IMG/VR virus record: IMGVR_UViG_3300015245_000068
Span: 1-28,708 of that record
Direction: 5' to 3' (one strand)
Length of the DNA stretch: 28,708 nucleotides
From: a virus
Of this stretch, positions 1 to 25,174 are shown piece by piece (position 1 is the first letter of the stretch; each line of letters starts with the position of its first letter). Under the pieces are notes generated by a model. It saw nothing but the letters and a program-made list of their open reading frames with translations, was not told the origin of the DNA and ran no database searches. The position numbers and the translations under genes are program-made.

Positions 1-470
1 CCGAACGGCTCCCAATCGACTTGACGCAGGACGTCGAGATAACCCCCAGGTTCTTCCCTCATATCCTTCAGCAGCTCCGTCGATGACCATTTCTGAGAGG
101 ACGTGAACACCAGCTCCCCGCCGCAAGCCGTCACGGCGAAACTCTCCAGCGCCAACGCTTCATCGTCCTGAGCTTCGGCATAATCGATGCCTTTCACGTA
201 GAAGGCAGGCTTCACATGCTCGATCATCATCACCGCGTCGGCGCTATCGTTGATCTTCACTTCATCGACGCAGGAGAGAGCTGTAAGAGCTTCGGCCCGC
301 TCGGTTTCCGTAAAGCGGGGGCGGCCGGGGCCTTTGGCCACGAAGCGATCGGATGTGACGGAAACGATAAGTCTGTCACCCAGCTTGCGCGCCTGTGTTA
401 AGTGGCGTATGTGACCAAGATGCAACAGGTCGTAGCATCCATGGCAAAGCACAACGCGGAGATCACTCAT
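1..470 (-). CDS. HldE/RfaE C-terminal-type nucleotidyltransferase (3' end outside window)
   Basis: Partial gene: reading starts at ATG 470-468 and stays open for 156 codons to the window edge, so the C-terminus is missing. The N-terminus reads MSDLRVVLCHGCYDLLHLGH, with the HxGH nucleotide-binding signature of cytidylyl/adenylyltransferases at residues 17-20, and a WSSTELLK stretch near the end matches the conserved S(S/T)T motif of this fold. The family moves a nucleotide onto a sugar 1-phosphate or polyol phosphate; in HldE this domain makes ADP-heptose. Here it stands alone, about 21 kb downstream of a PfkB kinase resembling the other half of HldE. The start lacks a clear ribosome site. 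The nucleotide and sugar cannot be told from sequence; glycerol-3-phosphate cytidylyltransferase-like activity is an alternative. Family is confident, substrate unknown. Confidence 0.88.
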   Translation of the reverse strand, partial: MSDLRVVLCHGCYDLLHLGHIRHLTQARKLGDRLIVSVTSDRFVAKGPGRPRFTETERAEALTALSCVDEVKINDSADAVMMIEHVKPAFYVKGIDYAEAQDDEALALESFAVTACGGELVFTSSQKWSSTELLKDMREEPGGYLDVLRQVDWEPF

Positions 471-10144: not shown

Positions 10145-10189
10145 GGATCATCCTCCGCACCCAATAGCGCCAGAACCTCCAGATCCAGC

Positions 10190-10507: not shown

Positions 10508-10614
10508 TTCGTCGTCTTCCTTCTGCGAGTAGGTCACGATCAGCAGCATGTGCCTGATGAAGGCTGCCGCCGGAGCCGCATTTGATTTCGGGGGATGCTT
10601 CAAACTGAGAAGGA

Positions 10615-11159: not shown

Positions 11160-11611
11160 TGGACTTCTCCTGTGCCAAGCTTCTGCACATAAAGCATGGT
11201 GACGAATGTCGCCCCCACCGTAGCGGCGGTTCCCGTCTGGGCGACCGCCAGCGCGACCGTCGTCGTGTTGCCTACGTTTGCCATCAGCGTGAGGATCGTG
11301 GTCGTAAGCGTCGGATTGATCCGCGACGTCTGGGCTTTCACGTCAAACGTCGTGCCGGTGTAAGCCGTGCCGAGCGAATCTGTCCCGATCGACAAGAGCG
11401 CGCTCGTCTGCGTATTCCACGCCGTCAACGCATCGACGTTGAACTGCACGATCTGCGAGTTCGGCGGAACGTAGAAATTCGCCGTCGTCAGCGCCGTTCC
11501 CAGCGTCGTACCCTGGGAGAGCACCGCAAAGCCAGTATTCTGGTTGCGGGTGCCATCCGAGTAGAACTGCGGGCCGGAGATCATCGGGCCCGAGAAGCGG
11601 GTGATGCTCAT
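11156..11611 (-). CDS. beta-rich virion protein downstream of capsid
   Basis: A 151-residue protein starting MSITRFSGPMISGPQFYSDG. It has a beta-rich, Thr/Ala-rich body with no Cys and ends with a basic/Gly tail (TMLYVQKLGTGEVQ). Its ATGA overlaps the stop of the endonuclease fusion, which shows that the endonuclease gene sits precisely between this gene and the capsid gene. Placed directly after capsid in the ancestral order, it is likely a head decoration or completion protein. No family named. Confidence 0.62.
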   Translation of the reverse strand: MSITRFSGPMISGPQFYSDGTRNQNTGFAVLSQGTTLGTALTTANFYVPPNSQIVQFNVDALTAWNTQTSALLSIGTDSLGTAYTGTTFDVKAQTSRINPTLTTTILTLMANVGNTTTVALAVAQTGTAATVGATFVTMLYVQKLGTGEVQ

Positions 11612-12708
11612 GTTCCTGCCCCCATAATTCCTCCAATCATGCGCGGTTCGAAACGCACGATATTGTCCGCGGCTTCATGTCGTTGAAGATAAGCGATGGC
11701 TTTACGGAGTACCGTCACATCGTCGTAGGCATAACCGATCGCCATATTGCAGTTGCCGCACAGAAGGCCCCGCACCGCGCCGGTGGTGTGGTTGTGATCG
11801 ACTGACAACATTCGAATGGCGCCATTCTGGAGCTTCGTTTCGGGCTGCTCACAGATGGCGCAAACACCCTTTTGGATGATCAGCATCCGTTGATAAGTGG
11901 CGAAGTCGATTCCGTATTTCTTGCGGAAATCCTTATCACGGGTGCGATCCCGATTCGCCTCGCGATGCACCTTGCGACCTTCCGCCGTTCCCGTAGGAAG
12001 ATCGCTTTCGGAAAACCACCGATAATTGCCGGGGCCAATCGGCTGTGCCGCATCTATTGTTGACATGGCGTAGCGTCGATCAGGAACATCGGTCACATCA
12101 GCAGCAAATGCTTCGAAAGAAGGCCATCCAACCAGGATCCCTTGAGAGATCAAATTCGACCAAGCTGCCCGCTGGCGCTTTTCAAGCAACAGTGTGGCCG
12201 TGACCGCGGATATCGAGGTCGCCGCCTTCAACCGCGTCTCAGCGTCCACGTATGCAGCCGCCGCGTCTTCCGCCGTCGCGAAGTTGCCGCCGAGACTGAT
12301 CTGTTTGTAGTTCCAAGTGATCTTGGACTGGAATTTTCCGAACGGAGCAGGGCTCACACCTTTGAAGCCGGTGGAGTTGTTCGCGACAAGACCGCGCTCG
12401 CGGGCACTATCGATGCGAGAAACATCGCGCAGATTGGCGATCGCACAATTATCTGTCACGCCATCCTTAAAAGTGATGTCACCTTTCGGCCATTCCTTGT
12501 GGATGTAAAACCACGCAAGGCGGCTGGCCTGAAGTTTCTCGCGCTCAACAGTAATGAACCGATAACCGTTCGTGGCAATCACGCCAGCTCGGTCACCAAT
12601 TTGAATTCGATTCGACGAGCGAACCTTCCAACAAAAAATCCCTGATGCTGGATCGTAATCCAGCATCTCCAGAAGTCTTTGATGGGTGAGATTGATCACT
12701 TTCGCCAT
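11608..12708 (-). CDS. homing endonuclease fusion: degenerate HNH, AP2, CRW-like module, endonuclease VII
   Basis: A 366-residue protein with four modules. Residues 1-100 match the HNH_3 domain of the other HNH gene (DYDPASGIFCWKV, ASRLAWFYIHKEWPKGD), but the catalytic site reads ITFKD where the other reads IDHRD, so the key His is Phe. Residues 112-170 are an AP2 domain (STGFKGVSPAPFGKFQSKI). Residues 180-232 look like the ID...PGNxRW module of HNH/AP2 proteins (YAMSTIDAAQPIGPGNYRWF). Residues 265-345 form a recombination endonuclease VII domain: CAIC (283-286), DHNHTTG with D304 and H305, CGNC (317-320). ATG 12708 is chosen for its AGGAGA ribosome site. Composition is not AT-rich, suggesting an older resident. 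Confidence 0.85.
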   Translation of the reverse strand: MAKVINLTHQRLLEMLDYDPASGIFCWKVRSSNRIQIGDRAGVIATNGYRFITVEREKLQASRLAWFYIHKEWPKGDITFKDGVTDNCAIANLRDVSRIDSARERGLVANNSTGFKGVSPAPFGKFQSKITWNYKQISLGGNFATAEDAAAAYVDAETRLKAATSISAVTATLLLEKRQRAAWSNLISQGILVGWPSFEAFAADVTDVPDRRYAMSTIDAAQPIGPGNYRWFSESDLPTGTAEGRKVHREANRDRTRDKDFRKKYGIDFATYQRMLIIQKGVCAICEQPETKLQNGAIRMLSVDHNHTTGAVRGLLCGNCNMAIGYAYDDVTVLRKAIAYLQRHEAADNIVRFEPRMIGGIMGAGT

Positions 12709-12739
12709 TCCCGTTCTCCTGATATGAATTGTACAGTCA

Positions 12740-12767
12740 TTTATACAAAACATCAGGAGTTAGTCAA
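12740..12767 (-). promoter_or_regulatory. sigma70-like promoter for the endonuclease fusion
   Basis: On the minus strand TTGACT (12767-12762) and TATAAA (12745-12740) are 16 bases apart, in an otherwise AT-rich 107-base gap between the capsid stop and the endonuclease start. TG upstream of ATAAAT would also fit an extended -10 with 17-base spacing. The -10 lies about 31 bases before the ATG, with a good ribosome site between. It would let the selfish gene be expressed independently of the late operon. Confidence 0.55.
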
Positions 12768-12815
12768 CCAAGATATCGTATCAACGCTACTGTTTAAGAT
12801 TTATCAATGATTTCA

Positions 12816-13730
12816 TCAGCTTGTAGGAAATTCGCCCCAGCAAGCCCTTGGGTCATTAATACCAAATGAGTAACGTTCATATGCCTTGACAAGGAGATTG
12901 TCGGTTATATTATCGACCCAAAGATCAGACTCATATGGTATTCTCATCATATGGATCATCCCGTCGATATTCGTCTTCATAAACCAGGCGAAGTTCGACG
13001 TCAGGAAGTCCATCACCAGGAAACCTTCCGGCAGACCGCCTGACAATGTCAGGATGGCGTTGACGTCGTTGTCCGCCGTTCCCGGCCGCAGCTCGGTCTT
13101 CGTCAATCGGATCGCGACCTGTTCGAGATTCGGCGGGACGATCAACTGGCGCGCCCGGGACAGGATGCGAAGACCGCGCTCGTTGACGAACAGCGTCCGG
13201 ACGTTGGACATGTCAGCGAGCAGCGTCGACTCGTTCAGCGACTTCGGAACTGTCGACGTATTCGCCCAAGTGCCGCCGTCATAGGGATGCACCGTCGAGA
13301 AGAACGGCTGATTGTCGCCGCCCTGGGCCGAGTTGAAGGTCGTGCCCAAATTGAAGACGTTGGCGCCCTGGATTTCCTTGAACTGCGCGAAGGCTTCCTG
13401 CAGTTTCAGGTTCGTCGGGTTGAACTGCGCCTTGTACAGATTGTCGTCGATCATCTTGCGAGTGACGGCGTAGCCAAGCGCCACCTCGATGTGGACGAAG
13501 TTCCACGTGAAACGCTCGCCGGCCGCATTGTCGAAGGCCGTAGCGGCGCCTTCGTCTTTCAGCTGCGGCAGCGACAGGAACGCCATCTGCGTGGAGCGTT
13601 CCACCGCCATGTTGGACTGGTGTGTCTTGAACACCTTGTCCCACTGGCGAGGGATCATGTCGTAGGAGCCTCTTACATCGAAGAGGCCGGGGAGGAGTTC
13701 TGAGCGAACTTGGGCGAGGGAGACGGGCAT
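12816..13730 (-). CDS. major capsid protein (Mu gpT-like family)
   Basis: A 304-residue protein, the usual length of Mu gpT-type heads. Starts MPVSLAQVRSELLPGLFDVR and has SYDMIPRQWDKVF, VALGYAVTRKMIDDNLY, a long helix (FNPTNLKLQEAFAQFKEIQG), NERGLRILSRARQLIVPP with the LIVPP strand, and ERYSFGINDPRACWG at the end, all in the order of gpT-like HK97-fold capsid proteins. It starts one base after the stop of the decoration gene (TAACATG), the classic decoration-capsid pair. In the mature virion it forms the icosahedral shell. The gene is intact. Family assignment by pattern; overall role is secure from neighbours. Confidence 0.85.
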   Translation of the reverse strand: MPVSLAQVRSELLPGLFDVRGSYDMIPRQWDKVFKTHQSNMAVERSTQMAFLSLPQLKDEGAATAFDNAAGERFTWNFVHIEVALGYAVTRKMIDDNLYKAQFNPTNLKLQEAFAQFKEIQGANVFNLGTTFNSAQGGDNQPFFSTVHPYDGGTWANTSTVPKSLNESTLLADMSNVRTLFVNERGLRILSRARQLIVPPNLEQVAIRLTKTELRPGTADNDVNAILTLSGGLPEGFLVMDFLTSNFAWFMKTNIDGMIHMMRIPYESDLWVDNITDNLLVKAYERYSFGINDPRACWGEFPTS

Positions 13731-13731
13731 G

Positions 13732-14340
13732 TTACGCTACCCCGCTCTGGCCAGACTGAAGCTGCTGGTTATTGAAGGTGACGACGACCCAGTTGAAATT
13801 GGTGGTGTTGTCCGATCCGTTGCCGACCGCCCTCGCGGACCACATATCGACAATCGTAAAAGGCAGCGTCGAAGTTGTTGCGATCTGGCTTTGATCGACC
13901 GTGAATGTCGAAAAGCCCGCGCCAAAAGTCGTGCCGCCCGCGCCGGTTGACCATGCGATGTTGTTGCCAACCGCGGATGACGGGATGGCCGTCAGCAGCG
14001 CTGCCACTCGAAAGATTGCATGCGGCGAGTCGATGATCAGCGCGGTCGCATCGGCCTGCGCAGCCGCGCCAGGAAACCACGGCGAGGATACCGGGGCGCT
14101 CTGGCCCTTAGGGATATAGGTGCAACCCTGAAAAATGCCGGCGATGATGGTGGTCACCAGTGCCGTGCCGGTGATGGCCTGAATGTACGGCGTTGCCGCG
14201 CTTTTGATGACCGGATCACCGAAGAAGATCGAGGTCGCGTAACTCGATTGGATCATGCGCCGCGTAGGCGCGTAATCAGGTGCAGCACCGCCCAGATAGC
14301 CGATGTGCTGAAACCCGAATTGTGCCTGAGTATTCGCCAT
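13732..14340 (-). CDS. head decoration protein
   Basis: A 202-residue protein starting MANTQAQFGFQHIGYLGGAA, a start typical of phage head decoration proteins found just upstream of capsid genes. It has a beta-rich body with FQGCTYIPKGQ, SSPWFPGAAAQADATALIID and a C-terminal FNWVVVTFNNQQL strand. It has no enzymatic motif and precedes the capsid start by one base. It probably binds the outer surface of the shell to stabilise it. The start codon is preceded by a weak ribosome site (GGAG at about -15), with a tandem hairpin region further upstream that may matter for its expression. Confidence 0.78.
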   Translation of the reverse strand: MANTQAQFGFQHIGYLGGAAPDYAPTRRMIQSSYATSIFFGDPVIKSAATPYIQAITGTALVTTIIAGIFQGCTYIPKGQSAPVSSPWFPGAAAQADATALIIDSPHAIFRVAALLTAIPSSAVGNNIAWSTGAGGTTFGAGFSTFTVDQSQIATTSTLPFTIVDMWSARAVGNGSDNTTNFNWVVVTFNNQQLQSGQSGVA

Positions 14341-14545: not shown

Positions 14546-14626
14546 TCATCGAAACGCCATCCAGAAAAGCACGAAAGACGCACCGAACAGAACAACCAGG
14601 ATAGTCGCATCGAGCGAGTCGATCAC
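14546..14626 (-). CDS. 26-residue membrane micro-protein (possible)
   Basis: Starts with GTG overlapping the glycosyltransferase stop (GTGA) and reads MIDSLDATILVVLFGASFVL, ending FWMAFR. It is one short hydrophobic helix flanked by an acidic N-terminus and a basic C-terminus, which fits a small inner-membrane peptide. The four-base overlap is the same coupling used across the operon. Too short for a family call; comparison with related phages would decide. Confidence 0.45.
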   Translation of the reverse strand: MIDSLDATILVVLFGASFVLFWMAFR

Positions 14627-15411
14627 TCGGCCGCCTGCTGCATTTCGATGACCTGCGGCGCCGGCCGCTGCCACGCAGGCATCTGCGCTTGCTGCGCAGC
14701 CATATCCGCCATCATCTGCTTCTCGATATCGTCGAGATAGCGACCGGCATAGTCGTAGGGCCCGACGTGGGAGATGCGATGATTGACGTTAGCCCACACC
14801 TGGCCGCCGCATTGGCGCCAGCGGAAGCAGAAGGCGAGGTCTTCCGATATCAAGCCGCGGTCCGGAATGTCGAGCTTCTCGAAAGCCCGAATCAGGCGGT
14901 TTGCGCCAGCCTGCTTGATCGTATCGAACGCCGGATGGAAGGCGATCCGCGTGTCCACCAGTTGAGGCATCGCCTGCAACATCGTCGTCACCACGTCGCG
15001 CCGGATCAGCAGCACACCGCCGCCGACGCCTTCCACTTCGATGAAACCGCCGCGGCGCTGGGTTATTGGACCGCCCAAGCCCGATCCAACCCAGGTCGTA
15101 GGTTCTCTGCGATGGCGATATAGCGTTCCGACGATGGGCTCGCTGAACAGCACCATGTCGAGCACGAGATTGGGATCGAATCCCATGTCGGCGTCGAAGA
15201 ACAGTAGATAGTCCGAATGCGGGCAGGTGTCGTACCAGATCGTCAGAATCATACTGCGCAATTCGGCGATGTCGGGGAAGGAAATCGAGGAAATCGCAGA
15301 GCCGATTCCTTTGCCGATGAGGGTATCGCGCAAAGCATGAGACGTGAGAAAGCTTGTCGCCGAAATCATCTGGCCGAAAGCGGGAATATGGATATAGACG
15401 TTATGGCTCAT
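14623..15411 (-). CDS. GT-A type glycosyltransferase
   Basis: A 262-residue protein starting MSHNVYIHIPAFGQMISATS. Hydrophobic YLLFFDADMGFDP (residues 68-80) carries the metal-binding DxD (D73, D75) of GT-A glycosyltransferases, preceded by a Rossmann-like N-terminal half. VEGVGGGVLLIRRDVV and the late LISEDLAFCFRWRQCGGQVW match the acceptor half of phage and bacterial family A enzymes. The C-terminal 35 residues are Gln/Ala-rich and unrelated to the fold. ATG 15411 is chosen; it overlaps the methyltransferase stop by 11 bases. It would transfer an activated sugar, probably from a nucleotide donor, but donor and acceptor are unknown. Confidence 0.82.
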   Translation of the reverse strand: MSHNVYIHIPAFGQMISATSFLTSHALRDTLIGKGIGSAISSISFPDIAELRSMILTIWYDTCPHSDYLLFFDADMGFDPNLVLDMVLFSEPIVGTLYRHRREPTTWVGSGLGGPITQRRGGFIEVEGVGGGVLLIRRDVVTTMLQAMPQLVDTRIAFHPAFDTIKQAGANRLIRAFEKLDIPDRGLISEDLAFCFRWRQCGGQVWANVNHRISHVGPYDYAGRYLDDIEKQMMADMAAQQAQMPAWQRPAPQVIEMQQAAE

Positions 15412-16105
15412 TCGTGATGATCCCGTAGAATTTATCAATTGATGTTTTGGATTGTGCTTTCGCAGCGAGGAGTGTCGCGCCGTAATCTTCCGGCATCCGG
15501 AAATCGTGCGGGCATTGAAGATGCCTCACCTTGATATCGCACTCCCACAAATACGACGTGTTCCAATAACGGGCACTGAGGCGAAGGCGCTGCTCGTCCA
15601 AGGTTTCATCGGCGAAGGACCGGTATTCGACGATCGGATATTTCGCGATGAATGTCAGCTCGCCGGCATTGTCCCAGACGATCCATCTGTGATGGTTGTA
15701 GCCTCTGTAGATAGGCGAATTTCCATCGACGCCCCGGGCGAGTTCACAGACCGGGGAAGGGGTTTCGATGTAGCCGGCGGCGCCGCGGAGATGCATTTCC
15801 TTAATCAGATGGAAGGGATTTGCCATGTCTTCGAGGACGTGACGGCAGTAGATGAAATCCCATCCTACGCGGTAGCCTTCATAATCCGCGTCCGGGAGCC
15901 GCTGGTGTCCGACGTCAATCTTCGTCACCTGTTCCGGCGGCAGGCCCGGCACATCCTGCCAATCAACGAAGTGAGTAGCGGCGGGAAAGCGCGCTTGGCC
16001 AGGCCCGATTTCGAGGACTCGCTTGCCTTTGTATTTTGCGGCAAGCCATTCGACGATTTCAGGGACGGGGGACCAATGGTGAGGGTCGGCGTTGGTTAGA
16101 GGCAT
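15401..16105 (-). CDS. class I SAM-dependent methyltransferase
   Basis: A 234-residue protein. The SAM site is KRVLEIGPGQARFP (residues 28-41, GPG loop at 34-36), the acidic strand 2 corresponds to KIDVGH, and motif IV/post-II is DFIYCRHVLEDMANPFHLIK, the typical type-11/12 pattern where YCRHVLED acts like the H/D catalytic surroundings. The C-terminus lacks a nucleic-acid-binding domain. In a cassette with glycosyltransferases, sugar O- or N-methylation is the favoured role; small-molecule or protein substrates remain possible. Starts one base after the stop of the upstream regulator gene (TAATATG). Confidence 0.82.
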   Translation of the reverse strand: MPLTNADPHHWSPVPEIVEWLAAKYKGKRVLEIGPGQARFPAATHFVDWQDVPGLPPEQVTKIDVGHQRLPDADYEGYRVGWDFIYCRHVLEDMANPFHLIKEMHLRGAAGYIETPSPVCELARGVDGNSPIYRGYNHHRWIVWDNAGELTFIAKYPIVEYRSFADETLDEQRLRLSARYWNTSYLWECDIKVRHLQCPHDFRMPEDYGATLLAAKAQSKTSIDKFYGIITNEP

Positions 16106-16106
16106 A

Positions 16107-17285
16107 TTATGCCGCTTCTTCCAGCCAAGCCTTTATATCCGGAGCGCGCCGTTCGAGTTGACGCATCCCTTCATCTGTCAGCGCCCATGTCCACGCGCGG
16201 CGGTCGTTGATTTCGTCGATGGTCATGGCGAACCAGTCCGTATAATTCGGCTTCACAGCAGGAACGCTAATAAGATCACCTTCGTAATACCGATTATCGA
16301 TACCTTCGATCGCTTTCAGCCATTGCAGAGTTTTCGTTAGTTTGTCACGAGAGAATTGTCTTGTCGGCTTGTCCATAAGATCGGCTAACCGGCGTGCAGC
16401 CGCGCCTTGCCGTTTCACCAAATGGCGTGGGGCTTTTCGAATGCCGAAGATGGTCCCCTCGAATAGCTTCTGGTCAAGCTGACGAACGTTGTCCAATGCG
16501 GAGATCGGCCCGACTGTCGAATGGCGGATTTCCATCATCATGCCCGCCATCGTCTTGTTGTTCTCGGCCATGAACTGAATCATCTCGCGCTGGCGCTGGT
16601 CAGCCGCACGGTCAGACCGCTCCTGCCGTTGCTCGGCAGCCCGATCAAGACGCTCCAGGTATGCAAGGACGGCGGTATTATCGGATGGCTGAAGAGGATG
16701 CAACTTTCCATCCTGATACGCCAAAAACACATCAATAACGTGACATGTCGCCTCGTTGGCGAAATCGGTCTTCAGCAAGGTCAGCACGCGGATGGCTTGG
16801 CCGCGATTGAGCCAGTATTCATGGACAGTGCTTCCGTTGGCCGAATGCGCATTCCGGGAATGCAGCGCCCCATACCGTTGCAAGTCCTTGTAATTGTTAT
16901 CGATTACCGTTCGAATGTTGCGCGGCTGGCTCATTTTTGCCGTCTCAGCGAGGCGAATATCCTGGACCCGCATCTCGTCGTCAAAGGGCTGGAGATCAGT
17001 AACAGACAGAGCCGACACAACGGCGTGGCTATCTGCGATTGGCGCGCTTGATGCCTGCTCAGCCTCAAAAAGGGGCTCGCATTGCTCCGGCGTTTCGCAG
17101 CCGGCCGCCAGCACATACTTCCCCGGCTTAACGCGCACAATAGCCCCGCTATCTACCAAACGGCAGCAGGCACTGCTGATAGCGCGCAAAGTGCGACCGC
17201 TTTCTACTGCAAGCTGAATGTTAGTCCTGGCGCGCTTATGCCTCAGGAGCAGTTCAATCACCCAATGTTCTGCGATCTTTCTCAT
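16107..17285 (-). CDS. phage regulatory protein, Rha/antirepressor-like, with N-terminal winged helix
   Basis: A 392-residue protein. Residues 1-60 look like a winged helix (MRKIAEHWVIELLLRHKRAR, then RTLRAISSACCRLVDSGAIV), ending in a wing that matches transcription-type helix-turn-helix folds. Residues 100-200 carry VQDIRLAETAKMSQPRNIRT, YGALHSRNAHSANGSTVHEYW and TLLKTDFANEATCHVIDVFL, a pattern I associate with Rha/antirepressor-like phage proteins. The rest is a charged coiled coil (ERLDRAAEQRQERSDRAADQ) and a C-terminal domain. ATG 17285 is chosen for its AGAGGA site; a start at 17360 would add 25 low-quality residues. Likely a DNA-binding regulator; its regulon is unknown. Confidence 0.58.
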   Translation of the reverse strand: MRKIAEHWVIELLLRHKRARTNIQLAVESGRTLRAISSACCRLVDSGAIVRVKPGKYVLAAGCETPEQCEPLFEAEQASSAPIADSHAVVSALSVTDLQPFDDEMRVQDIRLAETAKMSQPRNIRTVIDNNYKDLQRYGALHSRNAHSANGSTVHEYWLNRGQAIRVLTLLKTDFANEATCHVIDVFLAYQDGKLHPLQPSDNTAVLAYLERLDRAAEQRQERSDRAADQRQREMIQFMAENNKTMAGMMMEIRHSTVGPISALDNVRQLDQKLFEGTIFGIRKAPRHLVKRQGAAARRLADLMDKPTRQFSRDKLTKTLQWLKAIEGIDNRYYEGDLISVPAVKPNYTDWFAMTIDEINDRRAWTWALTDEGMRQLERRAPDIKAWLEEAA

Positions 17286-17318
17286 AATGTCCTCTGGCTG
17301 ATTTGCGCGCATGGCAAA

Positions 17319-17356
17319 GCGGACCGGCCCAACCAGCCAGATCAAAGCCGGTCCGC
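17319..17356. promoter_or_regulatory. perfect 10-bp inverted repeat between TPP gene and regulator
   Basis: GCGGACCGGC (17319-17328) and GCCGGTCCGC (17347-17356) are perfect inverse copies with an 18-base loop, in the 129-base gap after the TPP-enzyme stop and 33 bases or more upstream of the regulator start. There is no run of T on either side long enough for a classic terminator. It may be an attenuator, a weak terminator between the two genes, or an operator for the regulator. Confidence 0.5.
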
Positions 17357-17414
17357 CCACCTGCGCAGATGTTTGAAGGATTCAGTCTTTGGCTGGTTTT
17401 AGAAAGAAGCGCAG

Positions 17415-19148
17415 CTATTCCGCCGCTTCTGCCTTCTCCCGGTAAGGCCACATGTCATCGATCGGAGTCGGAACGAACTTGCCGCTCTCCATGCGGGACT
17501 GGACGCGGGGGGCGATGATCTGATTGGGGGCCATGTCCATGTGAATCAGCGCCGGCAGTTCGCGCGTGAAAGCGTGTTCGAACATGCCGTCTGTCTCATG
17601 CCGCCAGTTTCCCGTGGTGGGGAAACCCATCATGTCCGCGATGCCCTCAAAGTGAGGACAACTAACCCCCGTTTTCTCGTTCGAAACCGCCAGCCTCCCG
17701 AAGTGATTCTCCTGCGTCAACCGCATCGTCGCGTAGCCGTCATTGGCATAGACGAAGATGGAGATGGGAAGCTTGTGATGGGCGATCGTCGCTAACTCTT
17801 GCAGGTTCATCATCGCGCCGCCGTCGCCGGTGAGGCAAACGATTTGGCGCTTACAGTCCGTCGCGAAAGCTGCACCGACGGCCGCCGGGATGGCATAGCC
17901 CATCGAAGACACGCCGGCTGAATGGATGAGCCGTTGGCCCGGTTTCAGCTTCAGGGACTGGAATGTAGGGATGAAGGAGAAGCCGACGTCGGTTATGACG
18001 ATGGCATCGTTGGCGAGATACTGACCAAGTTGTTCGATGAAGTGATAGGCGTTGATGCCGCCTTTGCCCTCGCGATATTCCGGGAGCATGACGGGATTGG
18101 CCAGCGCGTAGGCGTGGCAGGCGTTGAGCCAACTCTCCCAGTGGATGCGATCAGCCGGAAGCCGCTCCACAGCCCGGTCGAAGAACTCCTTGCAGTCCGC
18201 CACGATCGGCAGCGCGCACGGCAGCTTGCTTGCCTCCAGGTCATCGATATCTACCACGATCTTGATGGCATCCGGGGCGAACAGTTCGCGGTTGTGGCCG
18301 GTCTGCGGGTAGGAAAGGCGCGTCCCAACGGCGAGGATCAGATCTGCGTTCTGGATGGTCCAATTGCTCGCGCGGTCGCCGAAGATGCCGCCGGAGCCAA
18401 TGACGCAGGGATGGCCGGGGATAATGTCGCGCGCACCCCAGGACGTCACTACGGGCATGCGGAAGCGATCGAGGAAACGGCGGAGATGGTCTTCGGCTCC
18501 GGAAAGACGAATGCCGTTGCCGATGATCATGACGGGGCGGGACGCCTTGGGAAGCGCATCGATATGCTCGATCTGCGGAGATGGGAGCCAAGTCCGCCAT
18601 TCGGCATATTCCAGCGTCTCGGGATCAATTTCCGCCGCTTGTATGTCCAACGGGATTTCAATCCAAACCGGACCGCGGCGCTCTTGCATGGCTGCATCGT
18701 AAGCGGCTTGCAAATAATGGCGGATCAACCCCGGATCATTGACCGTGATTGCGAGTTTCGTAACCGGCCCAACGATATCGACCATCGGAAGTTCGTTCAT
18801 ACCCTGCGCACGAACATGTCCGTCGGGCAGCGTCATCATCGTCGAGCTTGTCGCCTGTCCCGCGATGACCAGCAGCGGAATGGAATCAACCCACGCCCCG
18901 GCCAATCCCGTCAGAGTATTCGTTCCGCCAGGTCCTGCCGTTACGCAGACAACGCCGATTCCATTCGTCACTCTTGCATCGGCTTCAGCCGCCATCGTTG
19001 CCGCTTGCTCATGATGCATGGCAATGGCTTTGATGCCGGGATGATGGCAGATGGAGTCGTTGAGATGCATCGCGCCAGCGCCGCAGACGGTGTAGACGCG
19101 GGGGGAGAGCTTCGAAACGAATTCCGCAACATAATCACTTAATTTCAT
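17415..19148 (-). CDS. thiamine-diphosphate enzyme, acetolactate synthase-like
   Basis: A full-length 577-residue protein of acetolactate synthase size. Residues 1-165 form the Pyr domain with the catalytic Glu in AMHHEQAA (E47) and AGPGGTNTLTGLAGAWVDSI; the middle domain starts about 200; the PP domain has GDG (441-443) and N469-D470 (YANDGY), the TPP-magnesium signature. TPP enzymes of this fold decarboxylate 2-oxo acids and may join the carbanion to an acceptor. In sugar clusters, relatives such as YerE transfer a two-carbon unit from pyruvate to a keto sugar to make branched sugars. That role is inferred here from neighbours; the true reaction is unknown. Its ATG directly follows the radical SAM stop. 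Confidence 0.85.
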   Translation of the reverse strand: MKLSDYVAEFVSKLSPRVYTVCGAGAMHLNDSICHHPGIKAIAMHHEQAATMAAEADARVTNGIGVVCVTAGPGGTNTLTGLAGAWVDSIPLLVIAGQATSSTMMTLPDGHVRAQGMNELPMVDIVGPVTKLAITVNDPGLIRHYLQAAYDAAMQERRGPVWIEIPLDIQAAEIDPETLEYAEWRTWLPSPQIEHIDALPKASRPVMIIGNGIRLSGAEDHLRRFLDRFRMPVVTSWGARDIIPGHPCVIGSGGIFGDRASNWTIQNADLILAVGTRLSYPQTGHNRELFAPDAIKIVVDIDDLEASKLPCALPIVADCKEFFDRAVERLPADRIHWESWLNACHAYALANPVMLPEYREGKGGINAYHFIEQLGQYLANDAIVITDVGFSFIPTFQSLKLKPGQRLIHSAGVSSMGYAIPAAVGAAFATDCKRQIVCLTGDGGAMMNLQELATIAHHKLPISIFVYANDGYATMRLTQENHFGRLAVSNEKTGVSCPHFEGIADMMGFPTTGNWRHETDGMFEHAFTRELPALIHMDMAPNQIIAPRVQSRMESGKFVPTPIDDMWPYREKAEAAE

Positions 19149-20312
19149 TTACAGAAACCCCAAATGAGGCGGAGCTGACGTGGTCGGGAACGTCGCGTTT
19201 CCCTTCACGTAGGCATCGAGCCAAGTATTGCTGAGAGTTTGTAAACAATTTTCCCCGCAATCCTTGGTTGCGTCGAATTGATCGCTTGCCAGATACCTCA
19301 TGACCTCCCAATAGCGGTCACTCTTGATAATATCGCGGAAACGCTCACGAGTCAGATTGCCGCAGTGGAATTTTGAATACTTAGCATTAAATTTCTGACC
19401 ACAAGTCGAAACAAGACCTGACCCTGAGAACTGAATCAGAAAAGGAGGGCCATAACAGCGCTGATAAGAGCGCTTGCCCTCGTCCTGAATCCGCGACCAC
19501 TTTACGGCAACGCGGAAATTCCCTTCCGTCAGCGCTTCCGCTTCTTCGAATAGCGGAAACAGCGCGCTATATTTGCGGTAATCGACGTTGAGGTCTTTCG
19601 TCGCCGAGTCAGCGCAGTGCTTCAGGATCGCGTATCCTTCGGTCTCGCCGAACATTTCCTTGGCGACGCGCGCAAATGGCACGATCTGATCGCCATCGTC
19701 AGGATGCACGACGAATTGAAGGTTGATGTTGACCGGCAGTTTGTCGCGCCGCTTGATCGCCATCGCTGCCTTGATATTCTCGACGACGCGGTCGTAAAGC
19801 CCCTGCTTCATGCCCATGATCTGCGCCCAGCGATAGCGATCGCCGCCGCTGAAGTTGAAGCGCAGGTAGGTAAGATGCGGCAGGATCCGTTCGAGAAGCT
19901 CCGGCGTCGTCTTCAAGCCATTCGTGCTGATGCCGATCTGAATGCCGAGCTTCGAGCCGTATTCGATAGAGTCCGCATAGAAGGGAACTTCCGTACTCTC
20001 GCCATCAGAGATCAAACTGAAGCCTTTAACGCCCACCTCGGCGGCATCTTCAAGGAACTCAAAGGCGTTCTGCTTCGTGATGACAGTATCTTCGCTGGCC
20101 TGGAGCTGAGCATAACAGAATCTACAAGAACTTGCGCACTTACGCGTCCACGCGCCGTCGACCGTAATTGGCGCGATCTTCTCGCCTCGCTGCCAAGCCA
20201 TGACGCGCTCGCGATAGAACCCGATTTTCGTCCCATCCAATTGCAGATCATGCACAGACGCCGGGCTTTCGAGCGCTACCTGTGCGTGGAATTCCGGAAG
20301 GAAGGCCGTCAT
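19149..20312 (-). CDS. radical SAM enzyme with SPASM-like C-terminus
   Basis: A 387-residue protein. The 4Fe-4S motif CASSCRFC (C59, C63, C66) is the CxxxCxxC signature of radical SAM enzymes, followed by SLISDGESTE (GGE-like) and GISTNGL. The C-terminus has extra cysteines (C286, C304, C317, C352, C356) in a SPASM-like auxiliary-cluster arrangement. SPASM proteins modify peptides, sugars (deoxysugar dehydratase or epimerase) or cofactors. No precursor peptide with a matching leader is obvious, so a sugar or small-molecule substrate is favoured by the neighbouring kinase, TPP enzyme, methyltransferase and glycosyltransferases. It follows the 59-residue coiled-coil gene by one base (TGAAATG). 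Confidence 0.85.
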   Translation of the reverse strand: MTAFLPEFHAQVALESPASVHDLQLDGTKIGFYRERVMAWQRGEKIAPITVDGAWTRKCASSCRFCYAQLQASEDTVITKQNAFEFLEDAAEVGVKGFSLISDGESTEVPFYADSIEYGSKLGIQIGISTNGLKTTPELLERILPHLTYLRFNFSGGDRYRWAQIMGMKQGLYDRVVENIKAAMAIKRRDKLPVNINLQFVVHPDDGDQIVPFARVAKEMFGETEGYAILKHCADSATKDLNVDYRKYSALFPLFEEAEALTEGNFRVAVKWSRIQDEGKRSYQRCYGPPFLIQFSGSGLVSTCGQKFNAKYSKFHCGNLTRERFRDIIKSDRYWEVMRYLASDQFDATKDCGENCLQTLSNTWLDAYVKGNATFPTTSAPPHLGFL

Positions 20313-20313
20313 T

Positions 20314-20493
20314 TCAGTTATCGCGCTGCTGTTTATTAATTCTACGATTCTGCTCGATTATCGCCACCATCTGTTCGCCAGATGCGGCGTTGCGTGCGGC
20401 TAACTCTGACGACTTCTCCGCATCTATCACCATACGTTCATACGCCAGCGCAATCCGCTCCAGCGCCTCAGCAATGCGTGAAAGTTCGCTCAC
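20314..20493 (-). CDS. 59-residue coiled-coil protein
   Basis: Starts with GTG overlapping the preceding stop (GTGA), reading MSELSRIAEALERIALAYER, then a continuous amphipathic helix (AARNAASGEQMVAIIEQNRR) to the stop, which precedes the radical SAM ATG by one base. It resembles a short, dimeric coiled coil with no cysteine or metal site. It is too short for standard gene prediction. It might be a partner of the radical SAM protein (some need a small helper), or just a small phage protein; sequence alone cannot tell. Confidence 0.6.
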   Translation of the reverse strand: MSELSRIAEALERIALAYERMVIDAEKSSELAARNAASGEQMVAIIEQNRRINKQQRDN

Positions 20494-20693
20494 AGCTTCG
20501 CCCTTTGCTCTGCGCTCATCTGACTGCGCAGCTTGGAATCATCCCCCTTGGCCTCTTTGAAAACCTCGATCCATTTCCCGGGACAGCGAGCGCGCAAATC
20601 GCACTCCAAAGCGAGAAGCGCCGGGCCTTGAATAGTGATTGGAATTTCAGAGCCGAAATGGACGATGACGTGGAGAGGATCAATGTTCATCAT
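20490..20693 (-). CDS. small conserved-looking phage protein
   Basis: A 67-residue protein starting MMNIDPLHVIVHFGSEIPIT with a beta-hairpin N-terminus and an alpha-helical C-terminus (IQGPALLALECDLRARCPGK, then WIEVFKEAKGDDSKLR). I recognise a similar short protein in other alphaproteobacterial phages. ATG 20693 overlaps the upstream stop (ATGA) and its own stop overlaps the next GTG. No function known; its location ties it to the tiny gene cassette beside the kinase. Confidence 0.6.
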   Translation of the reverse strand: MMNIDPLHVIVHFGSEIPITIQGPALLALECDLRARCPGKWIEVFKEAKGDDSKLRSQMSAEQRAKL

Positions 20694-20809
20694 AGCGGCG
20701 ACCCCCCTTCGTTTCGGCCATGTTCACGTTTGCCGCCACCCCACCCCATTTGATAGGTGATGAACGACAGCACGGCGCACAGAAGGATAAGTCCGATCGT
20801 GAATTTCAT
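20690..20809 (-). CDS. 39-residue membrane micro-protein
   Basis: Reads MKFTIGLILLCAVLSFITYQ, then a glycine-rich polar tail (MGWGGGKREHGRNEGGSPL). There is one hydrophobic N-terminal helix with a cysteine at position 11, so either a signal-anchored peptide or a lipoprotein-like small peptide. Start ATGA overlaps the preceding stop; stop TGA overlaps the next start. The two tight overlaps argue that this is translated rather than chance reading. Confidence 0.55.
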   Translation of the reverse strand: MKFTIGLILLCAVLSFITYQMGWGGGKREHGRNEGGSPL

Positions 20810-20964
20810 ACCGCTTTCTTCCATGGTTTGAGCGCGGCAACTCTTTCAGTATATGGCCTATCCAGTATCCAAGCGGATCGCTGACATTTGCGTCTGAACC
20901 AACCCGCGAGAACACATGCAGGCGGCGCTAGAAGCAGAAAGAGGAGGAATTCACCCGCGCTCAC
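20806..20964 (-). CDS. 52-residue membrane protein with basic tail
   Basis: GTG start at 20964 preceded by a good site (GAGG, seven bases before). Reads MSAGEFLLFLLLAPPACVLA, then GWFRRKCQRSAWILDRPYTE and a basic end. One hydrophobic helix (residues 5-22) and a cytoplasmic basic tail fit a small bitopic membrane protein. A longer frame up to 21192 exists but its N-terminal part runs through two better micro-genes in other frames. Followed by a four-base overlap with the 39-residue gene. Holin-like or Rz-like roles are possible but unsupported. Confidence 0.55.
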   Translation of the reverse strand: MSAGEFLLFLLLAPPACVLAGWFRRKCQRSAWILDRPYTERVAALKPWKKAV

Positions 20965-20970
20965 TTCAAT

Positions 20971-20984
20971 ACCTCTTCCAGCTT
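20971..20984 (-). repeat. 14-bp repeat, copy 1 (echo of kinase 3' end)
   Basis: ACCTCTTCCAGCTT here is identical to 21242-21255, where it encodes the last residues of the kinase (KLEEV). In the same relative frame this copy reads WKLEEVLK then TGA, close to the kinase end GKLEEVLA then TGA. It looks like a leftover of a second kinase end, as if the 271 bases between had been inserted or the gene end duplicated. Confidence 0.55.
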
Positions 20985-20996
20985 CCAACTCACGAC

Positions 20997-21116
20997 TCAC
21001 GACTCCAATTCGCGCACGATCATGACCGCCGCCCATCCTGCAATAGCGGGAAACACGATATAAAATACGATGTCGCCGATTGAGTGCATCATACTGAACG
21101 TCATATTGAACCCCAT
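20997..21116 (-). CDS. 39-residue membrane micro-protein
   Basis: Reads MGFNMTFSMMHSIGDIVFYI, then VFPAIAGWAAVMIVRELES. There are one or two short hydrophobic stretches with a polar start, and the start (ATG 21116) follows the upstream TAA by two bases with GGA before it. The next ATG (21104) could also start it. It is too small for standard gene prediction. Adjacent micro-genes and coupled spacing support translation; function unknown. Confidence 0.5.
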   Translation of the reverse strand: MGFNMTFSMMHSIGDIVFYIVFPAIAGWAAVMIVRELES

Positions 21117-21118
21117 CT

Positions 21119-21235
21119 TTATCCAAATGGCGGCGGAACTCCTTCGCTCTTACAAACATCTTTCCACTCTTCCGAAGTGGCCGCGAAAGCAAAACAAAGA
21201 ACTAGCGCTACGTAAACAATAAGCAAGAGGATCAG
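21119..21235 (-). CDS. 38-residue secreted or membrane micro-peptide (possible)
   Basis: Starts at CTG overlapping the kinase stop (CTGA), or a TTG three codons later, with AGAGG seven bases upstream. Reads MILLLIVYVALVLCFAFAAT, then SEEWKDVCKSEGVPPPFG. There is a clear signal-peptide-like segment followed by a short polar C-terminus. The unusual CTG start lowers confidence. The downstream gene starts two bases after its TAA, which fits a coupled set of micro-genes. Confidence 0.4.
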   Translation of the reverse strand: MILLLIVYVALVLCFAFAATSEEWKDVCKSEGVPPPFG

Positions 21236-22182
21236 GCCAGAACCTCTTCCAGCTTGCCCATGATCTCATCCCGTCCGACATGTCTTCGGTGGCCGACAAT
21301 GCCGATCTTGAGAGCGCCAACGACATTGCCGACAAGGGCGACGGATGCCATGTCGAGGCCGGCAGCGACGAGGGGAGCGGTGACGGCCATGACAGCATCG
21401 CCGGCACCGATAGTGTCGATTGCGGTTCCAGGAAGCGCGGGACCTCCGCCGTCCACACTGCCTTCTCGCCAATATGATCCATGTTTGCCATGCGTAATGA
21501 GGAACTTATTGCATGTCAGTTTTCGCGACAGGCTGGTCACAACCAATTCAATATGATCGTCCCGCATCCCCGCCGCCAGCCGCGCCTCCGGATCGTCGAT
21601 ACTGATGAAATCCGCCCGTGCCCAGTTCGTCACGGGGTTGAACCCCATATTCCCGGCATTGCTTTGCGCATTGATGGCGAGGAACGCACCTGATGTCTCG
21701 ATCACACTGCGTGGCGTCGGGCCAAACAAGCCATGCCCGAAGTCCGTGACGATCACAATATCAGCGCAGACCAGCTCGCGCTCCAAGGCCGCCTCGAACG
21801 AGGCCCGCAAGACCGGATGCAACTCGATCTGGCGCTTGTCGTAAACTTCGAAGAGCTTGCGGTTGAAGTCCACATCGACGAAACGCGTCTTGCGGATGGG
21901 GGAAGCAGGCGAAAGACATTCCGCCATCGCCCAATCGCCATGCTTGGATGCAGCGACGACACCGCCTTCGAATTCCTCCCTGCCTGTTTCGACAGTCGCC
22001 AAGATGAATTCCTTGGACGAACGTCCAAGAGCAGAGACGTAGCGATATTCGTCGATGATGGTCTCACCGACGAAGAGAATGCGGAGCTTGTCGGCCTTGG
22101 CGAAGGCTTCGCGGATGCGGATAAGCCGAGCCGCATCCGATGCAACTTCCACCGCCTTTATTAGAGCAGTCGAAAAATTCAC
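21232..22182 (-). CDS. PfkB-family sugar kinase, HldE N-terminal-like
   Basis: A 316-residue ribokinase/PfkB protein. After a 30-residue N-terminal extension, LRILFVGETIIDEY (33-46) and EFEGGVVAASKHG (70-82, PfkB motif 1 glycine pair) match HldE kinase, and DTIGAGD (256-262) is the ATP-binding/catalytic PfkB motif 2 with Asp262 the likely base. VTDFGHGLFG is the substrate-adjacent loop. HldE-N phosphorylates heptose 7-phosphate at C1; relatives act on other sugars. GTG start overlaps the glycosyltransferase stop (GTGA). The matching nucleotidyltransferase half is not fused but sits at the left edge of the window. Substrate unknown. Confidence 0.85.
   Translation of the reverse strand: MNFSTALIKAVEVASDAARLIRIREAFAKADKLRILFVGETIIDEYRYVSALGRSSKEFILATVETGREEFEGGVVAASKHGDWAMAECLSPASPIRKTRFVDVDFNRKLFEVYDKRQIELHPVLRASFEAALERELVCADIVIVTDFGHGLFGPTPRSVIETSGAFLAINAQSNAGNMGFNPVTNWARADFISIDDPEARLAAGMRDDHIELVVTSLSRKLTCNKFLITHGKHGSYWREGSVDGGGPALPGTAIDTIGAGDAVMAVTAPLVAAGLDMASVALVGNVVGALKIGIVGHRRHVGRDEIMGKLEEVLA
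21242..21255 (-). repeat. 14-bp repeat, copy 2 (inside kinase 3' end)
   Basis: ACCTCTTCCAGCTT lies at the extreme 3' end of the kinase gene and encodes part of KLEEVLA. It is identical to 20971-20984, 271 bases away, which brackets the two smallest membrane micro-genes. Confidence 0.55.
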
Positions 22183-23123
22183 CCGTATGCCCTCACAATA
22201 GATGGAATTGTCGTCGGAGGAGTCAGCGTATAGGCGAACCGCGCTGCTTCTGCCGGTTCCATCCCCTCCAGCAAAGACGGAACCATATCAACCGCCTTCT
22301 GCCGGATGCGGCGATAGCGTTCGTCAGCTGGCGAAATCGTCTCAAGCTGGCGCGATTGCCCACGCACGCAATCGTTGATCCAACGCGAGCGGTATTCGAT
22401 CAGCGGATGGTGAGCGAAGAGCATCACTTTTCGCAAATCAGTTTCCTGAAAATCATCGGGCAAAATGATTTCACGCGCCTGGCGCCGCCTCATCAGATAG
22501 GCCGCATCGAACCACGTTGCCCACCAGGCCGGCTCCCGCATCTCCTGTGTCGGCCCGGCTTTACTCTGGTCTGTTCGCACATCGGCGAAGGAGACGCGAT
22601 CGATCAGCCGCGCGACGTCATCCACCCAATGGTCTACGAACCAGTACGGGAAGTAGGGCGGGAAGAGATAGCCCAGCTTTTCGACAAACGCTCGAGTCGG
22701 CGCCATGACGGACGGAAACGAGGCGTTGGCGAGGTGCCCGTAGACGACGCCGATGCCGTCAGGAAAGCGAGCGGCGGCATCAAGGATCTTGGTGTCGTAA
22801 CCGGGCGTGATGTCGGGGGCATCGTCGGCAGCAATGAGATAGGCGTCGGCATCGGGGCAAAGCTCCGTGACTGCGTTCCATTTCTCAGCGATGGTATCGG
22901 GCCGAGGCTTGATCACGAGATAGAGCGGAGGCGTCTCGCGCGTGCCGCCGGGAAGCTCAATCGGATTCTTCTGGATAGCCTCGATCGCCGGATAATCGTC
23001 GTCATCGGCCAGCACGTAGAGGCAAGTGTTCGGCTCGGTCCAGTTCTTGACCGATTGCTTGATGGTTTCGACGAGTTGGGCGGCTCGGCCGCGGGTGGCC
23101 AGAGTGATCGCGAGCTTACCCAT
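22179..23123 (-). CDS. GT-A type glycosyltransferase (family 2-like)
   Basis: A 314-residue protein. N-terminus MGKLAITLATRGRAAQLVET is a family 2-like nucleotide-sugar start, LYVLADDDDYPAIE (35-48) supplies acidic residues, and AYLIAADDAPDITPGYD (94-110) carries the metal-binding DD. The remainder has WFVDHWVDDVARL, a likely catalytic acidic segment, and a C-terminal helix set. Phage-encoded relatives decorate virion proteins or nucleic acid; bacterial ones act on surface polysaccharides. It is the first gene of the sugar cassette and is coupled to the preceding head-module gene (TGATG) and to the kinase (GTGA). Donor and acceptor unknown. Confidence 0.75.
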   Translation of the reverse strand: MGKLAITLATRGRAAQLVETIKQSVKNWTEPNTCLYVLADDDDYPAIEAIQKNPIELPGGTRETPPLYLVIKPRPDTIAEKWNAVTELCPDADAYLIAADDAPDITPGYDTKILDAAARFPDGIGVVYGHLANASFPSVMAPTRAFVEKLGYLFPPYFPYWFVDHWVDDVARLIDRVSFADVRTDQSKAGPTQEMREPAWWATWFDAAYLMRRRQAREIILPDDFQETDLRKVMLFAHHPLIEYRSRWINDCVRGQSRQLETISPADERYRRIRQKAVDMVPSLLEGMEPAEAARFAYTLTPPTTIPSIVRAYG

Positions 23124-23758
23124 CAGTCCTCCGGCGGCAAATATTGCGGACGCGGGCCATATGTCGCCTGATCGATGTCGACCCGCCCTCGTGGACGCGT
23201 GCCGCGATGAGCGCGCATGTCCTTGGTCGTATTGCCGTTGAAATTGGCTTTGCCGCCGGTCAACGCGGAATCACGGTCATTCATCTGCTGAGCCGCCTTG
23301 GCGTATTCCTCTGCCCTGGCATCGTCGCACATGATTTTCGGGCGCTCGTCGAGACGCTGGCCGCCACGGATGATCGAGCCTTTCTGGCCGATGGACGTAA
23401 ATCGTCCCGCGAAGCCCGGACGATCCGCCGGCACGGCGCGCCAGCCGTTCTCCGCCATCATCATATTCTGATCGAGCAGAATCTCCTGATTGCCTGAAAC
23501 CGACACGGCATTCCATTGATATTCGAAATCGGGATCCATCAAATCGGAAGGGATGGCGAAGATATCGCCGGTATCCTTGCGCTTGCGGGTGAGGATTTCG
23601 CCGTCGCGGCCGTAATAGACGCCATCCCGGGGGGCATCTCGCATCGGCTCACGCGTGGAGGCCGAGCGCGGGCCGTTGCGCCCTTGCTTTTTCGGAGCCG
23701 GAGCGGCGATGATTTCAGGGGGAAGATCGGGAGCGGGATCAATGGGGAGTTCGGTCAT
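23123..23758 (-). CDS. conserved phage structural-region protein
   Basis: A 211-residue protein from ATG 23758 (ATGA overlap with the preceding gene). N-terminus is Pro-rich (LPIDPAPDLPPEIIAAPAPK), then basic and disordered, followed by an ordered core with DFEYQWNAVSVSGNQEILLD, ENGWRAVPADRPGF and LDERPKIMCDDARAEEYAKA, ending RGRVDIDQATYG. I recognise this core as a common phage protein between scaffold and capsid genes. Function is unknown to me; virion assembly is the likely area. Confidence 0.65.
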   Translation of the reverse strand: MTELPIDPAPDLPPEIIAAPAPKKQGRNGPRSASTREPMRDAPRDGVYYGRDGEILTRKRKDTGDIFAIPSDLMDPDFEYQWNAVSVSGNQEILLDQNMMMAENGWRAVPADRPGFAGRFTSIGQKGSIIRGGQRLDERPKIMCDDARAEEYAKAAQQMNDRDSALTGGKANFNGNTTKDMRAHRGTRPRGRVDIDQATYGPRPQYLPPED

Positions 23759-24192
23759 GACTGCTCTTTCGTGATGGCGTTGTAGAGCCAACGAAGCCAG
23801 CGATGTTTGAGGACGCGGATTGGTGTCTGACGGCCCGCTTGGACATTCGAAATTGCCGCTGCGGTGACGGCCGCTGGATCGATAGTCACGGCTTCATCGG
23901 CAGCTTTCGCCTTGAGCCGATCGCGCTCCTTGAACATCTCGGAAATCTGCTCAAGGCTAGTGCCCCGCGGCACGAACGTCATGCCGTCCGGTGGAGACTG
24001 TTCTCCGATCGCCACCGTGTGGATGCGCGACACCTCGTTGCGGCCGGGACCAATGATCTGTCCCTGCATCTTGACATGGCCGGTAAACGATCCGCCGGCC
24101 TGTTGGCCCCAGCGCTCCAGATTTCGCAAAGCGCCGCCGATGCGCGCCTCTTCTTCCTCTTCTTTGCTTGCGTAAGGCTCTGCGCCGCTCAT
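23755..24192 (-). CDS. small head-module protein
   Basis: A 145-residue protein. ATG 24192 is chosen (MSGAEPYASKEEEEEARIGG) because the frame upstream of it is a low-quality Arg/Ser stretch overlapping the scaffold gene, and the start sits just after the scaffold stop. It has an acidic N-terminus, a middle with MQGQIIGPGRNEVSRIHTVA and MTFVPRGTSLEQISEMFKER, and a basic C-terminus (TPIRVLKHRWLRWLYN). No family recognised. Composition suggests a cytoplasmic assembly factor. Confidence 0.65.
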   Translation of the reverse strand: MSGAEPYASKEEEEEARIGGALRNLERWGQQAGGSFTGHVKMQGQIIGPGRNEVSRIHTVAIGEQSPPDGMTFVPRGTSLEQISEMFKERDRLKAKAADEAVTIDPAAVTAAAISNVQAGRQTPIRVLKHRWLRWLYNAITKEQS

Positions 24193-24193
24193 T

Positions 24194-25174
24194 TCACGCC
24201 TCGATGTTGTTCTTGTCGTACAAGCCACGCTTCTGCATTTCGAGCTTGCGGCGCGCCATTTCCTGGATTCCGATCGGGTCGCCCTTCTTGAATTTTCCTT
24301 TGCCGCTTGGATCGTTGTAGTTCCACACGAGCGTTCCATCGGTTGCCGAGGACTTTTCCCCTTTCGTCAGGTAGACTTGGTTGCTCCGGTTGTCGCTCGC
24401 GCCCGACGAATGGCTTCCAGCGCCGCCGTTCACGGGAGCCACCGGAGGCGCTGGAAGGCGCGTTGCCGTGCGTGTTTGTCCATTGCCGCTTCCGTTTCTC
24501 GCTTCAGGCGCATCGCGCAAGCCCAATGTCTTCTCGACATGCTCGAAATATTCGGTGCTGTCCGGCTCAAGCCCTTGAGCCACCGCGACATGATGGGCGC
24601 TCGTCAGCCGCGCATTCTTCCTGGGATCGATGAGCCAGTCGCGATGCTCGCGCAGCCAACTCGCCGTCGGCGCCGTGAACTTGGAGATGTGCTCTTCGAG
24701 AGGATCCCCAGCACGGCGAGCTTGCGGCTGATCTTCCACCCCTGAAGAAGACTTCCGGCTTTCGAGGTCGGACTTTGCTTCATCCAGGCGGACAATCTTG
24801 GCCTCCGCACTCGCAATCCGCCGTTGAGCTTTAGCGGCAGCGGCAAAGTCGCCTTTTTCCATACACGCCGCATAGTCGGCTTCGGCTTGCGAGGCTTCGG
24901 CGTTGGCAGCAGAGATACCAGCGTCGATCGCGCCTGTCTGACTAACCGAAGTCTCCGCCCGCGCAGCAGCAGCATCTTGACGGGCGCGATCCGCAGCGGC
25001 TCTCTCGTCAGCGGCACGGCGGTTGGCCGCTTCTTCAGAATCCTTGCGCCTCTTATTGTCCGCGAGGAGATCGTCATACTGCTTCTTGAGTACAGCACTT
25101 GCGTCCTCTTCGCCGACGATGACATCGCCGGATTCGCCTTCGACGCTTACGACAAACTCTTCTTCGTCAGCCAT
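24194..25174 (-). CDS. scaffold-like coiled-coil protein
   Basis: A 326-residue acidic protein. Residues 25-140 are a long Ala/Glu/Lys coiled coil (RRAADERAAADRARQDAAAA, EADYAACMEKGDFAAAAKAQ). A middle region PLEEHISKFTAPTASWLREH, then AHHVAVAQGLEPDSTEYFEH, is a pattern I associate with phage scaffold proteins (planned helix pair, then capsid-binding end). The C-terminus is basic and Lys-rich (KGKFKKGDPIGIQEM, LEMQKRGLYDKN). Location after the portal and chaperonin and before capsid is the canonical scaffold slot. No protease domain is visible. Its ATG overlaps the preceding stop by eight bases. Confidence 0.72.
   Translation of the reverse strand: MADEEEFVVSVEGESGDVIVGEEDASAVLKKQYDDLLADNKRRKDSEEAANRRAADERAAADRARQDAAAARAETSVSQTGAIDAGISAANAEASQAEADYAACMEKGDFAAAAKAQRRIASAEAKIVRLDEAKSDLESRKSSSGVEDQPQARRAGDPLEEHISKFTAPTASWLREHRDWLIDPRKNARLTSAHHVAVAQGLEPDSTEYFEHVEKTLGLRDAPEARNGSGNGQTRTATRLPAPPVAPVNGGAGSHSSGASDNRSNQVYLTKGEKSSATDGTLVWNYNDPSGKGKFKKGDPIGIQEMARRKLEMQKRGLYDKNNIEA

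Follow-up and report, generated by a model that had tools for sequence, protein, structure and literature searches.

A slot for exchangeable sugar pathways among phage head genes, with three alternative thiamine diphosphate enzymes and a candidate branched sugar

Introduction

The 28.7-kb viral fragment IMGVR_UViG_3300015245_000068 from IMG/VR (hereafter the window, meaning the whole stretch of 28,708 nucleotides) raises the question of what a set of sugar, thiamine diphosphate (ThDP) and radical S-adenosylmethionine (SAM) enzymes is doing in the middle of a phage head operon. The main gene order on the minus strand is portal, scaffold, cassette, head protein, capsid and tail; the cassette, every gene of which lies on that strand, spans positions 14623-23123 and is flanked by scaffold and head genes. 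The initial annotation had placed sugar, TPP and radical SAM enzymes between the scaffold and capsid genes, and gene positions together with Pfam, NCBIfam and phrog domains confirm this. On balance, we favour the reading that the locus is an exchangeable sugar-pathway slot whose genes would make a branched, possibly methylated, nucleoside diphosphate (NDP)-heptose-like sugar, to be transferred to a virion protein by two glycosyltransferases, GT1 and GT2. No described phage system of this kind was found in the open-access literature searched.

Results and Discussion

A linked gene set in a conserved slot

A search with the capsid protein returned 80 loci, and both borders of the slot are visible in 38 records, the window included. 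Counted as sequences and not as independent events, these complete slots comprise 13 with the radical SAM cassette, four with an alternative set (L039, L045, L059 and L060, with a DegT aminotransferase, a cupin-like DUF6016 protein and a NeuD/PglD-like hexapeptide acetyltransferase) and 21 with GT1, with or without GT2. The last group carries none of the pathway genes in our search panel, and some of its slots are long enough for genes outside that panel. The linked set consists of GT2, an HldE-like PfkB kinase, a small protein, the radical SAM enzyme (rSAM) and a ThDP enzyme, usually joined by a fused nucleotidyltransferase (NT), a GmhA-like isomerase and a methyltransferase (MT); rSAM, PfkB and the small protein occur together with a single type of ThDP enzyme in 13/13 cassettes and in 0/25 of the other slots. 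GT1 is constant in 38/38 slots while the pathway next to it varies.

This arrangement is conserved and is more than chance, because the same block stands in the same slot of 12 other complete slots, and for the same reason we reject the idea that the genes came together by accident or stem from bacterial DNA binned by mistake. The comparison of gene order in related phages, which the initial annotation had put forward as a test, thus speaks for linkage within the slot, and relatives without the cassette run from scaffold to capsid via GT1 alone or directly; the cultured relatives Pelagibacter HTVC023P, Planktothrix Pag-Yong1 and Caulobacter RW do so without an annotated cassette. The phage group is large and mostly uncultured. 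Its hosts are probably Alphaproteobacteria; the phage contig L107 falls into a Rhizobiales bin, which is a hint at a host and no proof.

An unrelated podovirus (L106, MW202801.1) has, at 8980-13643 after its capsid gene, a run of radical SAM, glycosyltransferase, PhyH, methyltransferase, NodB-like and glycosyltransferase genes. Its radical SAM gene is distantly related to that of the cassette, and this locus hints at more than one origin of sugar cassettes linked to head genes.

Three ThDP superfamilies in one position

What, then, would the pathway make? The ThDP enzyme of the window has three full TPP domains (N, M and C; Pfam 1e-31, 2e-28 and 9e-28), and its first match in the PDB is 8rph (2.7e-111), which is JanthE (PMC12188165), followed by 5ahk (2.7e-65) and 6lpi (4e-55). 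Its HHEQ and GDG motifs align with JanthE and, judged by search scores, JanthE/YerE are nearer to it than the acetolactate synthases are. Of the earlier description as a full acetolactate-synthase-like TPP enzyme, the full three-domain architecture stands; a plain acetolactate synthase does not, since the best NCBIfam score reaches 290 where 538 is required, and JanthE is a much better match. With the YerE-like synthases (YerE, ErwE and JanthE; PMC12247030, PMC12188165) the window enzyme shares full length, the catalytic Glu and an aligned C-terminal stretch, but it has GDG where JanthE has CDG, its gene lies in a phage head operon, and its partners are NT-PfkB and a radical SAM enzyme instead of the enzymes of the CDP-3,6-dideoxy-4-keto-glucose pathway that is the YerE-like setting.

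Each of the 13 cassettes has exactly one of three ThDP types: JanthE/YerE-like, split E1-like or transketolase-like. The JanthE-like protein is found in the window, L002, L003, L004, L008, L019, L035 and L048, a split pyruvate-dehydrogenase-E1-like alpha/beta pair in L014, L016, L078 and L107, and a split transketolase in L030; partly visible slots add further E1-alpha/beta-like pairs (L017, L018, L028, L034, L040, L062, L072 and L086). Even L014, the relative nearest to the window (capsid protein 93% identical), has a different type from it, and the type changes at least four to five times in quick trees of rSAM, GT1 and the major capsid protein, of which the starred branches force only two to three. 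These three superfamilies are reported to make the sugar branches of lipopolysaccharide (LPS) and antibiotics, and to be the only ThDP superfamilies known to use ketones as acceptors (PMC12247030); the two-subunit E1-like enzyme recalls the alpha-KADH2 (E1-alpha/beta) synthases of aldgamycin, kibdelomycin and their relatives (PMC12247030). Because the window enzyme is closest to JanthE/YerE and is swapped elsewhere for the other two branching superfamilies, these comparisons support a probably branched sugar, as the initial annotation had suggested, and the repeated swap in one position can be seen as a natural experiment pointing to a shared reaction, sugar branching.

The same enzymes might instead lengthen the chain of a virion-directed sugar, so that the isomerase, kinase and nucleotidyltransferase would be fed with an octulose- or heptulose-phosphate, and add no branch at all. 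The transketolase-type replacement in L030 and the GmhA/HldE set would fit a ketose phosphate made first, but the single-chain type is JanthE-like, and the relatives of JanthE that are known combine 2-oxo acids with ketones, not with sugar phosphates (PMC12247030, PMC12188165), and we regard chain lengthening as unlikely.

Genes for activation and capping of the sugar

The PfkB kinase, present in 13/13 cassettes, retains its GAGD motif, and in 11/13 the nucleotidyltransferase is fused to its N-terminus inside the slot (order NT-PfkB), which bears out the earlier proposal that the NT at the edge of the window, where the two are split, belongs to the set. In other phages the NT gives single matches and, where it could be placed, lies within the slot and is fused to PfkB. 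A GmhA-like SIS isomerase accompanies 9/13 cassettes and was not found in the records of the window, L014, L019 and L030; L014 also lacks the NT in its 19-kb fragment. Isomerase, PfkB kinase and nucleotidyltransferase resemble those of the ADP-heptose pathway (GmhA, HldE), but the domain order in the cassettes is reversed, with the NT first, and no phosphatase or epimerase was identified in the phage slot. The MT gene occurs in 10/13 cassettes and in 0/25 other complete slots.

The radical SAM enzyme and its small partner

Seven cysteines of rSAM (C59, C63, C66, C286, C304, C352 and C356) are invariant in 17 sequences; its Radical_SAM match lies above the cut-off and its SPASM match slightly under it (20.1 vs 21.5 bits). 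We considered whether it might be viperin or a similar antiviral enzyme and rejected this, as the match is weak (29 bits, where the cut-off is 180). Identity is 53-73% across 17 phages and 41-59% to 27 loci obtained by searching cellular genomes. NT-PfkB, E1-alpha/beta, DegT aminotransferases and sometimes SIS lie near rSAM in many of these 27 loci, mostly in those of SAR11 and other Alphaproteobacteria, and in L133 the neighbours are NeuB-like and nucleotidyltransferase genes. The expectation that the enzymes would co-occur in bacterial surface-polysaccharide clusters was thus borne out for the core enzymes, in SAR11 and others. The SAR11-type clusters share with the phages rSAM with its small upstream protein, the NT-PfkB fusion and E1-alpha/beta; they add short-chain dehydrogenase/reductase (SDR) and DegT aminotransferases, whereas the phage cassette has GT1 and MT in addition and is surrounded by head genes.

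The small protein of 67 amino acids (aa) is encoded upstream of rSAM in 13/13 cassettes, and most cellular loci likewise have a homologue immediately before rSAM. SPASM enzymes often mature peptides, and this habit, together with the strict gene order in phages and most cellular loci, would suit a pair in which rSAM modifies the small protein as its peptide substrate, as in ribosomally synthesised and post-translationally modified peptides, with the sugar genes as an independent neighbour. Such a pair is very unlikely here: the small protein is conserved over most of its length and has no variable core, its structure model is beta-alpha-beta with no PDB match at E<0.001 in a fold search, and rSAM is absent from every one of the 38 complete slots that lacks sugar genes. 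In L002 (6969-8333) and L003 (6693-8147) a protein of 454-484 aa, unassigned to a family, lies between the small protein and rSAM.

Glycosyltransferases and the likely target

GT1 is a single-copy gene in 19/19 records, and its catalytic DxD, SED and H columns (D73/D75, E190/D191, H215) are invariant in 28 sequences. The structure model has a GT-A fold, nearest to A197 of the archaeal virus STIV and to collagen hydroxylysine galactosyltransferases, so that fold and DxD metal motif, in model and alignment, agree with the original GT-A assignment. Both GTs match phage families (phrog_1574 and phrog_14945), and a Pfam scan of the two gave zero matches at E<=0.01.

The initial annotation had left the virion, the DNA and the host surface as possible destinations, a choice that we narrow, with caution, to the virion: a virion protein target is favoured by the position of the genes in the head operon, by the presence of GT1 in every slot and the matches of its model, and by the failure to find a GtrA flippase (20 phage records) or a thymidylate-synthase-type hydroxymethylase in the phage records searched. 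The two last results bear on the other destinations. A sugar that alters the LPS or O-antigen of the host, blocking superinfection or changing receptors, would accord with core enzymes found in bacterial surface-polysaccharide clusters; the genes lie within the head operon, no clear membrane span was seen in any cassette protein and the flippase is missing from those records, all of which makes host modification decidedly improbable. DNA-glycosylating phage GTs exist (as cited in PMC12619734), but base modification of phage DNA is the most far-fetched of the destinations, given the lack of an enzyme of the thymidylate-synthase superfamily in these records and a head-gene location that does not suggest it. 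According to Freeman et al. 2023 (as cited in PMC12619734), mycobacteriophages likewise encode glycosyltransferases, which modify proteins of the capsid and the tail, and there the glycans have been observed; the cassette phages encode a putative dedicated pathway for making the sugar.

A proposed pathway and the points against it

For the favoured virion-directed branched sugar we propose the following steps. A GmhA-like isomerase, from phage or host, would supply an aldose phosphate, which the PfkB kinase and the nucleotidyltransferase (an HldE in reversed order), helped by a host phosphatase, would convert to an NDP-heptose-like sugar. The radical SAM enzyme and its small partner may oxidise or otherwise prepare this sugar, the ThDP enzyme would take a short acyl group from a 2-oxo acid and join it as a branch to a keto-sugar, and the methyltransferase would cap it. 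GT1 and GT2 would then attach the product, most likely to a capsid or head protein during assembly.

Several points weigh against this proposal. We infer the product, the acceptor and the virion glycan, as we do the radical SAM step, the branch, the order of the steps and the source of the ketone. The matches to HldE and GmhA score well short of the equivalog cut-offs, and the heptose identity is therefore a guess; some other sugar may be made. In the window, the NT lies at the far end of the contig, about 21 kb from PfkB, and there is no isomerase, tblastn for isomerase or E1 genes having found none. The phage E1 subunits, assigned by Pfam/NCBIfam, are short, with ~195 aa apiece, and do not have the transketolase C-terminal domain that the cellular subunits possess; in both respects they differ from alpha-KADH2. 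The structural matches of GT1 are moderate (TM 0.4-0.5). Besides rSAM, no dedicated dehydratase or ketone-forming enzyme was found, and the ThDP enzymes might act earlier, assembling the carbon skeleton ahead of activation.

Gene layout and neighbouring genes

Table 1. Features of the window in and around the slot
Feature	Position	Strand	Length	Remarks
HldE domain-II-like nucleotidyltransferase (NT)	3..470	-		rfaE_dom_II 3.2e-31; runs off contig
Major capsid protein, right slot border	12816..13730	-		phrog_371 major head protein 6e-10; Mu-like gpT 3e-6
Conserved head-region protein, precedes capsid gene	13732..14340	-		phrog_37556 2.7e-5; in all complete slots
GT1, core glycosyltransferase of slot	14623..15438	-		38/38 complete slots
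SAM-dependent methyltransferase (MT)	15401..16105	-	234 aa	Methyltransf_23 1.7e-4, under curated cut-off
Gene inserted in cassette	16107..17360	-	417 aa	Very weak family matches only; no clear family
ThDP-dependent carboligase, JanthE/YerE-like	17415..19148	-	577 aa	Retains catalytic Glu47 and GDG
Radical SAM/SPASM enzyme (rSAM)	19149..20312	-	387 aa	Pfam Radical_SAM 5.5e-12; CxxxCxxC and C-terminal cysteines
Conserved partner protein of rSAM	20490..20693	-	67 aa	Motif GDDSKLR..M; overlooked by the initial annotation
PfkB sugar kinase, HldE domain-I-like	21232..22182	-	316 aa	GTG start; Pfam PfkB 4.7e-13; rfaE_dom_I 1.6e-15
GT2, soluble GT-A-like glycosyltransferase	22179..23123	-	314 aa	phrog_14945 glycosyltransferase 1.9e-5; 24/38 complete slots
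Conserved protein after scaffold	23123..23791	-		Left border for slot definition
Scaffold-like protein, left landmark of slot	24194..25174	-		Precedes slot in relatives too; weak phrog matches only

The cassette has start/stop overlaps at some junctions, not throughout as had been stated: there are overlaps at GT2/PfkB, at the left border protein/GT2 and at MT/GT1, and the rSAM and TPP genes abut, but gaps of 538 nucleotides after PfkB and 54 after the TPP gene interrupt the series. The true start of GT1 is probably the ATG at 15411. The 538-nucleotide stretch (20693-21232) has no convincing gene, and relatives place the SIS isomerase there. The inserted 417-aa gene has no match in the slots of relatives and is probably a passenger outside the pathway; its product resembles a phage regulatory (Rha-type) protein. 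Endonuclease genes, HNH-like and GIY-YIG-like, are dispersed among the structural genes (4624-5208, 11608-12753 and 5819-6478).

Conclusions

The cassette offers a concrete handle on the uncharacterised pair of radical SAM enzyme and small protein in SAR11 polysaccharide clusters. More broadly, and more tentatively than for the pathway itself, we speculate that the slot is an O-antigen-like, serotype-style system on phage particles, in which a constant glycosyltransferase by the capsid gene is served by interchangeable sugar pathways, including one for branched sugars that uses three unrelated, mutually substituting ThDP enzymes and a new rSAM/small-protein pair. Virion glycosylation by phages is already known; here, if this is true, a modular slot found across the lineage would also encode how the sugar itself is made, and the swapping of pathways would resemble that of bacterial O-antigen loci. 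It predicts that otherwise similar phages would have chemically distinct particle coats.

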